A stretch of 64,000 bases of DNA from Ilyomonas limi (GTDB lineage: Bacteria; Bacteroidota; Bacteroidia; Chitinophagales; Chitinophagaceae): positions 186,001 through 250,000 of the forward strand of contig NZ_SZQL01000007.1 in the NCBI RefSeq assembly GCF_005233845.1, read 5' to 3'. Position 1 is the first letter of the stretch; every line of letters begins with the position of its first letter. Below are positions 703 to 1,541 of this stretch, piece by piece. A model generated the notes under the pieces. The model did no database searches. It had not been told where the DNA came from and worked only from the letters and a program-made list of their open reading frames with translations. Both the position numbers and the translations under genes were made by a program.

Positions 703-1191
703 TCACTCGCTGGCTTTGGTTACCCGTACATCGCGTATAAAACTCTCTTCGAGCGATATGAAAGTTTCGGTGCGCTCAATGCCTTTTATCTTTTGCAACT
801 CATCGTGCAGTACAAAGCGCAACTGCTGAATGTTTTTGCAAATAATCTCGGCAAACATGCTGTAATTGCCGGTGGTATAGTTGAGACGTACAATCTCTGG
901 TATCTTTTTTAGTTCTTTTGCCACGGTATCGTAGAGCGAACTTTTTTCGAGGAAAATACCAATGAAAGCAATTACGTCATAGCCTAATTGTTTAATGTCC
1001 ACGTTGAGTTTGGTACCTCTTACAATACCGGCTTCTTCCAGTTTTTTAATGCGTACATGGATGGTACCGCCGGAAACAAACAATTTTTTGCCTAAATCGG
1101 CATACGAAATCTCAGCGTTTCCCATCATTTCCTGAATAATTTGGAAATCGAGTTTATCTAAGTTAACTTTAGTGCCTGTTTGACCTTGCAT
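703..1191 (-). CDS. Lrp/AsnC family transcriptional regulator
   Basis: A 162-residue protein of normal family length. Residues about 10-60 form the AsnC-type helix-turn-helix (LDFQIIQEMMGNAEISYADL, then a recognition segment VSGGTIHVRIKKLEEAGIV). The rest is the RAM (Lrp/AsnC ligand-binding) domain, with the alternating strand pattern ending in TETFISLEES. Such proteins bind DNA as dimers or octamers and sense amino acids. The start ATG at 1191 gives a short leader before the HTH, as is usual. It lies convergent to nothing and divergent from the tRNA-like gene at 1321, with which it shares a 130-bp spacer. The regulated genes are not evident. Confidence 0.93.
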   Translation of the reverse strand: MQGQTGTKVNLDKLDFQIIQEMMGNAEISYADLGKKLFVSGGTIHVRIKKLEEAGIVRGTKLNVDIKQLGYDVIAFIGIFLEKSSLYDTVAKELKKIPEIVRLNYTTGNYSMFAEIICKNIQQLRFVLHDELQKIKGIERTETFISLEESFIRDVRVTKASE

Positions 1192-1261
1192 ATTAAATAT
1201 TTTCCAAGTGAAGTTGCAATTTATTAAATAGAATCTAAACTTTAAAAATTTATCTTGAATT

Positions 1262-1295
1262 TATTGCAATAATACAGGAGAATGTTTTAATATTG
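1262..1295 (+). promoter_or_regulatory. putative promoter of the tRNA-like gene
   Basis: TTG at 1264-1266 and TAATATTG at 1288-1295 are separated by 21 nt. The second box has seven of eight matches to the Bacteroidota -7 consensus TAnnTTTG. Transcription would start near 1300, about 20 nt before the first base of the acceptor stem. The match is imperfect, so the assignment is tentative. Confidence 0.4.
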
Positions 1296-1320
1296 CACCC
1301 ACAAACGAGTTCTTATATAC

Positions 1321-1491
1321 TGTGGGGTGATGAAATCCTTTGGCAGACATGCCCTCTCGTCTCGGGGGTGAGGACAACAGGACAAACTAAGCATAGAGCC
1401 GACCAAACTCGCGTTCGGCCGACCGGGGTTGACCACCAAGCTTTTGTGTTTAGCTAACTGCCTCGTGTAGGTTCGAGTCCTACCCCTACAG
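1321..1491 (+). tRNA. tRNA-like RNA (class II, Leu/Ser-like) with an 87-nt insertion in the variable region
   Basis: Seen directly: acceptor stem 1321-1327 TGTGGGG pairs with 1484-1490 CCCTACA (7 bp, one G-U); discriminator G1491; no encoded CCA. D arm 1330-1332/1348-1350 (ATG/CAT) encloses a Leu-like loop with TTGGCAGA. T arm GTAGG/CCTAC (1467-1471/1479-1483) has loop TTCGAGT. A 5-bp stem CCCTC/GGGGG (1352-1356/1364-1368) sits in the anticodon-arm position, but its loop TCGTCTC has C instead of U at position 33. TGAGG (1369-1373) can pair with CCTCG (1461-1465) as a variable-arm stem, closing an 87-nt loop (1374-1460). Without that loop the RNA would be an ordinary 84-nt class II tRNA. A terminator follows at once. 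It may be an aberrant or decayed tRNA, or a tRNA-like RNA with another role; the anticodon (nominally GUC) is not credible. Confidence 0.55.
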
Positions 1492-1496
1492 CTATT

Positions 1497-1541
1497 AAAA
1501 GCCTTTAGTAAATTGATATTCAATTACTAAAGGCTTTTTTG
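1497..1541 (+). terminator. rho-independent terminator of the tRNA-like gene
   Basis: Stem 1497-1515 pairs with 1521-1538 (AAAAGCCTTTAGTAA / TTACTAAAGGCTTTT plus a short extension, one bulged A), followed by a T-rich run. It begins six bases after the acceptor stem ends, which supports an independent RNA transcript. Confidence 0.8.

Follow-up and report, generated by a model that had tools for sequence, protein, structure and literature searches.

A conserved tRNA-like RNA of Bacteroidota that joins an aspartate-type anticodon loop to a GatCAB-type acceptor end: a candidate carrier for asparagine supply

Introduction

What could be the job of an RNA that can be drawn as a complete class II tRNA and carries 87 extra nucleotides in its variable arm? 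The question is raised by a locus of Ilyomonas limi (Chitinophagaceae), at the beginning of a 64,000-nucleotide stretch of contig NZ_SZQL01000007.1 that we analyzed at full length and refer to as the window. A sequence-only reading of the window had offered three interpretations: a tRNA-derived RNA with a new job, a tRNA with an RNA insertion, or a decayed tRNA that is kept transcribed. Employment of a tRNA outside decoding has a precedent in Staphylococcus, where a non-translating tRNA-Gly serves cell-wall synthesis. In the open-licence PMC literature, we recognized no paper that names the RNA described here.

Results

The RNA lies on the forward strand at 1321..1492 of the window (171 nt plus an encoded C74), and scored 116.2 bits against R1, a covariance model built from 11 short forms. 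The 5' strand of the acceptor stem (1321..1327, with U1, G2, and U3) pairs with 1484-1490, and the 3' strand (1484..1492) contains A72 at 1490, the discriminator G73 at 1491, and C74 at 1492; C74 is also encoded in 42/42 canonical tRNA genes of the host genome. A Leu-like D arm with GGCAGA (1330..1350; 3-bp stem 1330-1332/1348-1350, two pairs with two-sided changes) is followed by an anticodon arm (1352..1368; stem 1352-1356/1364-1368) whose loop, UCGUCUC (1357-1363), places G34, U35, and C36 at 1359-1361 and C38 at 1363. The 5' strand of the variable-arm (V) stem (1370..1373) pairs, with covariation, with 1461-1464, and the T arm with its TTCGAGT loop occupies 1467..1483. Inside the 87-nt insert (1374..1460), a 3-bp stem (1378-1380/1458-1460) and a second stem (1387-1393/1447-1453) are separated by an internal loop (GACAAA at 1381-1386, CUAA at 1454-1457). 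The second stem is the one that we found conserved when the alignments were inspected by eye, in place of the AAGC/GCTT pairing (1389-1392/1440-1443) drawn from the single sequence; the GCCGA/TCGGC hairpin (1398-1402/1415-1419) proposed with it coincides in place with a hairpin of the relatives that, again by eye, changes in step.

Upstream, a divergent gene for an Lrp/AsnC-family regulator (703..1191, reverse strand; PF01037 and HTH_AsnC-type) starts from the same intergenic region. This region also contains an operator-like palindrome, TTGAATTTATTGCAA, at 1255..1269, and a promoter -7-like element, TAATATTG, at 1288..1295 on the forward strand, named for its resemblance to TAnnTTTG, which we take to be the Bacteroidota -7 consensus. 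A GTTCTT motif in the leader (1309..1314, forward strand) is presumably of the kind called boxA, and we refer to it as boxA-like. An inverted repeat with a T run marks an intrinsic terminator at 1497..1540 on the forward strand. The promoter and terminator ascribed to the RNA are present at the level of sequence patterns, and the RNA is probably transcribed and completed by CCA addition.

The host genome encodes a full normal set of 42 tRNAs, tRNA-Asp included. ARAGORN made no call in the window. At the gathering score, Rfam gave no tRNA, tmRNA, or intron model among the window matches, and such models, group I included, were likewise absent when the surroundings of the RNA were searched with the limit raised to E = 5. 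We rejected a tRNA with a group I intron, as there is no intron core in the anticodon loop, and likewise a substitute for tmRNA, as the RNA matches no tmRNA model and the host has a normal tmRNA of its own. Elsewhere in the window, the Bacteroidales small SRP RNA (RF04183; 25310-25417, 93.7 bits) was the only gathering-score match among those listed. The minimum free energy of the RNA was no better than that of shuffled sequences (z = 0.34); fold energy was thus uninformative, and covariation was used as evidence of structure instead.

A BLASTN search found matches in 33 of 59 genomes, that of I. limi included, a few of them short (in G041, the 3' end and terminator only). When 35 copies were aligned by MAFFT without fitting to a structure, RNAalifold predicted 25 pairs, of which 12 showed two-sided changes. 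In a model alignment of 57 copies (54 distinct rows), 98.5% of the cells paired, compared with 47-54% in slid-strand controls, and two-sided changes occurred in 20/29 pairs, although this alignment favors the structure to which it was fitted. Relatives of the RNA therefore exist, and its cloverleaf stands far above chance.

The acceptor ends read UGU...ACAGC in 173 of 175 distinct bacterial copies. Part of this agreement is imposed by selection, as the 3' pattern that yielded set A5 (103 distinct copies) demands A72, G73, and C74; in the 77 distinct copies of sets A3 and A4, which were not chosen by this pattern, the same ends were found in 76, and the remaining one reads UGC...GCAGC. U1-A72 is present in 54/54 distinct rows of the model alignment, and one of the 175 bacterial copies begins with A. 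The copies range from 109 to 211 nt with inserts of varying length, in which the loop motifs CTAA (163/175) and A[CT]AAA (141/175) recur; the conserved D and T loops, the cloverleaf, and the encoded C74 are features that the RNA shares with translating tRNAs. Many loci contain two to four copies in tandem.

The silence of ARAGORN on the window and the missing Rfam match are what a decayed tRNA, or a tRNA with an intron-like insertion, might have produced. We give this explanation almost no weight: the pairing covaries and is conserved across families, no group I model matches, and the insert lies in the variable arm as part of the conserved fold. Conservation across the phylum contradicts the notion of a decayed tRNA kept transcribed. 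We consider it nearly certain that the RNA is functional and conserved. It does not represent a decayed tRNA, and its family has no Rfam match at the gathering score, the tRNA and tmRNA models being negative.

The distribution of the RNA was read from a gap in the model scores and not from raw tallies, since canonical tRNA-Leu also match the model: copies reached at least 81 bits (lowest 81.4; 90.0 in the search of 395 genomes), whereas canonical tRNA-Leu stayed at or below 62 (highest left out, 61.9). One genome, G241, fell within the gap (68.9 bits) and holds a compact form described below. Full-length elements were found in 40/395 genomes of the phylum, a count that could miss a divergent copy outside the 28 element-free genomes (15 of them among the class's 60) that were rescored more loosely; the exact 3'-half pattern occurred in 37/395, and a reversed-pattern control in 0/395. 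A single class holds all the carriers except three genomes of family f68, which are without GlnRS (order and family names for these genomes were inferred). At least 120 stretches in a named genome collection matched the exact pattern, and 105 full copies were modeled in 78 of the 80 named loci taken from them. Row L226, truncated at a contig end, was dropped, and L191 yielded no match to the model. Named hosts among the matches listed are Chitinophaga, Mucilaginibacter, Pedobacter, Hymenobacter, Pontibacter, Algoriphagus, Cyclobacterium, Neolewinella, and Saprospiraceae. We also noted a 111-nt copy (L182:3131-3241, forward strand) on a contig labeled Ignavibacteriales bacterium UTCHB1, either a real outgroup or a binning error. 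In several loci (L133, L139, L174, and L213), a conserved stretch, AGGTTATTTTGGGTTTATTGTTAAT or its variant TTTAGGTTTATAATTGGTTAG, lies just 3' of the RNA.

Phages carry the RNA as well. A full copy of at least 98 bits was present in 38 of 41 viral contigs with the pattern, and portal or terminase genes in three protein-checked contigs (L308, L294, and L303) mark at least these three as true phages. The RNA stands among several tRNA genes in eight viral contigs. In two of these eight, which resemble each other in layout (L329:524-2166 and L331:6166-7808), the element is clustered with tRNAs and a tmRNA gene, adjoined in L329 by a QueC-like queuosine gene, and another contig with the element encodes a GroEL-like chaperonin (L305:11958-13523, forward strand). 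Other odd RNAs with tRNA-like ends and unusual middles occur in pattern-bearing viral contigs (L299:4587-4706, L299:9979-10112, L325:4516-4660, and L309:7213-7350 on the reverse strand; L333:12281-12379 and L316:27-145 on the forward strand); ARAGORN called none of these six.

Next, we considered which amino acid such an RNA might carry. PMC9976931 lists G73, G34, U35, C36, and C38 as the aspartate identity set, and adds that G1-C72 of bacterial tRNA-Asp helps the aspartyl-tRNA synthetase (AspRS). All five identity nucleotides are found in the RNA, but G1-C72 is replaced by U1-A72, hence charging may be weak. U35, C36, and C38 are each present in 175/175 distinct bacterial copies; G34 is present in 164/175 (C, U, or A in the other 11) and in 74/77 of the set not chosen by the 3' pattern. 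Among 32 distinct phage copies, 28 have C38 and four have A38, while G34-C36 are not put to the test there because the phage loops were located by requiring GTC. In the host, tRNA-Asp is the only one of the 42 tRNAs to combine an NUCnC loop with G73. SerRS (for the long arm and G73), GluRS, and GlnRS were ranked below AspRS, which is preferred because U35, C36, and C38 are kept and because only the host tRNA-Asp pairs such a loop with G73.

The U1-A72 pair at the other end of the molecule has a published meaning of its own. It is given in PMC4206432 as the mark for acceptance of Asp-tRNA-Asn and Glu-tRNA-Gln by GatCAB, and published accounts describe G1-C72 and U20a as the features that keep GatCAB off tRNA-Asp. 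Only tRNA-Asn and two tRNA-Gln among the 42 host tRNAs have U1-A72. The RNA thus joins an AspRS loop to a GatCAB end, and going by these determinants it is likely to be a substrate of both enzymes.

G241 provides a natural variant without the variable-arm insert (L415:1038-1114, reverse strand, 77 nt). This compact form keeps U1-A72, G2-C71, G73, and U35-C36-U37-C38, and has A34. Its lack of an insert indicates that the insert is not essential to the family; it may serve to keep the RNA out of translation or to bring in a partner. To call the RNA a tRNA with an insertion is therefore literally true and beside the point, since the insert varies and is once absent while the determinants for charging and amidation stay.

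Could the RNA nevertheless decode? The earlier doubt on this matter had been based on C33, which is indeed present in the window copy but is a local variant, U33 being found in 144/175 bacterial copies. Position 37 is T or C in 171/175 and G in four, and is never A. The U33 and purine 37 of translating tRNAs are hence not kept, which suggests that the product is destined for something other than the ribosome. A tRNA that translates Asp codons, if an unusual one, would have the GUC anticodon, cloverleaf, and encoded C74 seen here, ARAGORN calls the compact variant tRNA-Asp(atc), and the eight phage contigs place the RNA among tRNA genes. We regard this as very improbable all the same, given that the host has a normal tRNA-Asp, that the loop departs from U33 and almost always has a pyrimidine at position 37, and that U1-A72 would invite amidation, such that Asp codons would be misread as Asn.

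If the assignment to AspRS and GatCAB is correct, genomes with the RNA should also encode GatCAB. We tested this prediction on 98 genomes of the class, with G241 set aside, and found gatB in 37/37 genomes with the RNA versus 3/60 without it (38/38 when G241 is counted among the former). By contrast, the E. coli-type asparagine synthetase B (AsnB) was found in 0/40 genomes with the RNA versus 31/39 without. The Fisher values (1.2e-23 for gatB, 7e-15 for E. coli-type AsnB) are inflated by relatedness, and the stronger argument therefore comes from switches within families. In family f23, seven genomes have the RNA and gatB and are without E. coli-type AsnB, and three (G176, G289, and G517) have E. 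coli-type AsnB and neither RNA nor gatB; in family f1, RNA and gatB are jointly absent from G031 and G112. Five genomes (G031, G112, G215, G360, and G392) are without RNA, gatB, and E. coli-type AsnB alike.

GlnRS is encoded in 34 of the 37 class genomes with the RNA, so most of them do not need GatCAB for Gln-tRNA. The three class genomes with gatB and no RNA are G211, G319, and G364. G211 is without GlnRS and would need GatCAB for that purpose. G319 and G364 have weaker gatB matches (8e-105 and 7.6e-106), and are without the RNA and E. coli-type AsnB. Outside the class, gatB is common in genomes without the RNA, hence the link between the two holds for this class only.

By E. coli-type AsnB we mean a TIGR01536 match that ends near profile position 385; the type was checked by BLAST on 20 loci, of which five were of the E. 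coli type. These five proteins, all from genomes without the RNA, show 65-68% identity with E. coli AsnB along its length. For the remaining 15 paralogs (13 of genomes with the RNA, the others of G319 and G364), identity was 25-34% across 392-518 residues. An AsnB-family paralog exceeds the cut-off in 35/40 genomes with the RNA and might make asparagine; G022, G352, and G411 have matches below the cut-off only, and G126 and G478 have no AsnB-family match at the threshold used. One of the two paralogs of the I. limi genome lies among polysaccharide genes.

The same association has to be weighed against another use of GatCAB, in which a non-discriminating AspRS charges ordinary tRNA-Asn, as in Bdellovibrio, GatCAB is retained to serve that tRNA, and the RNA is linked to GatCAB by shared ancestry only. 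This mode is known, the host tRNA-Asn has the required U1-A72, and the genera with AsnRS, GlnRS, and GatCAB and without asparagine synthetase that are named in PMC4206432 include Bacteroidetes. We think it improbable, because RNA and gatB vanish together within both f1 and f23, and because both sets of determinants sit on the RNA itself.

Lastly, we examined the regulator gene. PF01037 was present in the four neighbor proteins tested. A divergent Lrp/AsnC gene lies within 600 nt upstream of the RNA in 30/40 loci (L133-L172) and in 48/73 named loci, whereas 0/33 viral contigs have such a neighbor. The best Lrp/AsnC match reached at least 221 bits in 10/10 genomes with the RNA, four of them with the gene not adjacent; five genomes of f24/f25 gave 173-191 bits, and another five no more than 87.5 bits. 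A T-loop motif search saw no divergent RNA copy beside the f24/f25 paralogs. In patterns that were framed after the leader sequences had been viewed, the palindrome motif occurred in 23/115 upstream regions (mean 0.49, maximum 4, in 200 shuffles) and in 0/34 canonical tRNA upstream regions, and boxA-like G[CT]TCTT occurred within 35 nt of the RNA in 42/115, versus 4/460 other windows and 3/34 canonical tRNAs. The promoter-like pattern does not set the element apart (65/115 versus 22/34 canonical tRNA upstream regions). The regulator may bind the leader palindrome.

Such an arrangement brings up another role, in which the RNA, charged with Asp or Asn, works with the Lrp/AsnC protein to sense or regulate Asp/Asn status and is not the bulk route to asparagine. 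The divergent AsnC-type gene with its operator-like palindrome and the AsnB-like paralogs of 35/40 carriers speak for it. In its pure form, however, this role leaves unexplained both the absence of E. coli-type AsnB from 40/40 genomes with the RNA and the phage copies without an Lrp gene, and we consider it unlikely.

Discussion

Of the interpretations offered at the outset, a tRNA-derived RNA with a new job agrees best with what we found: a conserved and covarying RNA, with promoter-like and terminator sequences, beside a full tRNA set and a normal tmRNA. We propose, as a reasonably probable account built on sequence comparison, that it supplies asparagine as a dedicated carrier, which AspRS would aspartylate and GatCAB would amidate. 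The RNA would be a non-decoding amino-acid carrier with a tRNA-Leu-like body. Aspartate would be loaded by AspRS through the GUC-C38 loop and G73; GatCAB would then read U1-A72 and convert the RNA-bound aspartate to asparagine, which would be released or handed over in place of the product of an E. coli-type AsnB. The Lrp/AsnC-type regulator encoded from the same intergenic region probably adjusts this supply. Provision of free asparagine by the RNA is the best explanation of the distribution, on which it rests.

The proposed route is closest to tRNA-dependent asparagine synthesis, as in Deinococcus, Thermus, and Bdellovibrio, where AspRS and GatCAB, the same two enzymes, act on a tRNA-Asn with U1-A72; PMC4206432 proposes such synthesis where asparagine synthetase is missing. 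Here, by contrast, a dedicated RNA that does not decode would act as carrier, and its Asp loop would make a discriminating AspRS sufficient. With tRNA-Asp, the RNA has GUC, C38, G73, and G2-C71 in common, but it differs in U1-A72 instead of G1-C72, pyrimidine 37, a loose U33, and a long variable arm. With class II tRNA-Leu, it shares the D arm, the geometry of the V arm, and the GTG before the T arm, but has G73 instead of A73, a long insert, and a different loop. tmRNA is likewise tRNA-like, non-decoding, and carried by phages; the RNA, however, has no match to the tmRNA model. The Staphylococcus tRNA-Gly, too, is a tRNA paralog that has been retained to supply an amino acid to a process other than translation, although amino acid, enzymes, shape, and lineage all differ.

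More tentatively, it is possible that much of the Bacteroidota obtains free asparagine by way of a dedicated RNA cofactor, a tRNA paralog that no longer decodes and is governed by an AsnC-type regulator, and that phage copies secure asparagine during infection. If so, this would account for the odd tRNA-like gene in phages, for the retention of GatCAB beside GlnRS, and for the absence of E. coli-type AsnB. Common environmental bacteria would then have an RNA built specifically for the synthesis of a core amino acid, and RNA would be seen to act as a metabolic cofactor in living cells.
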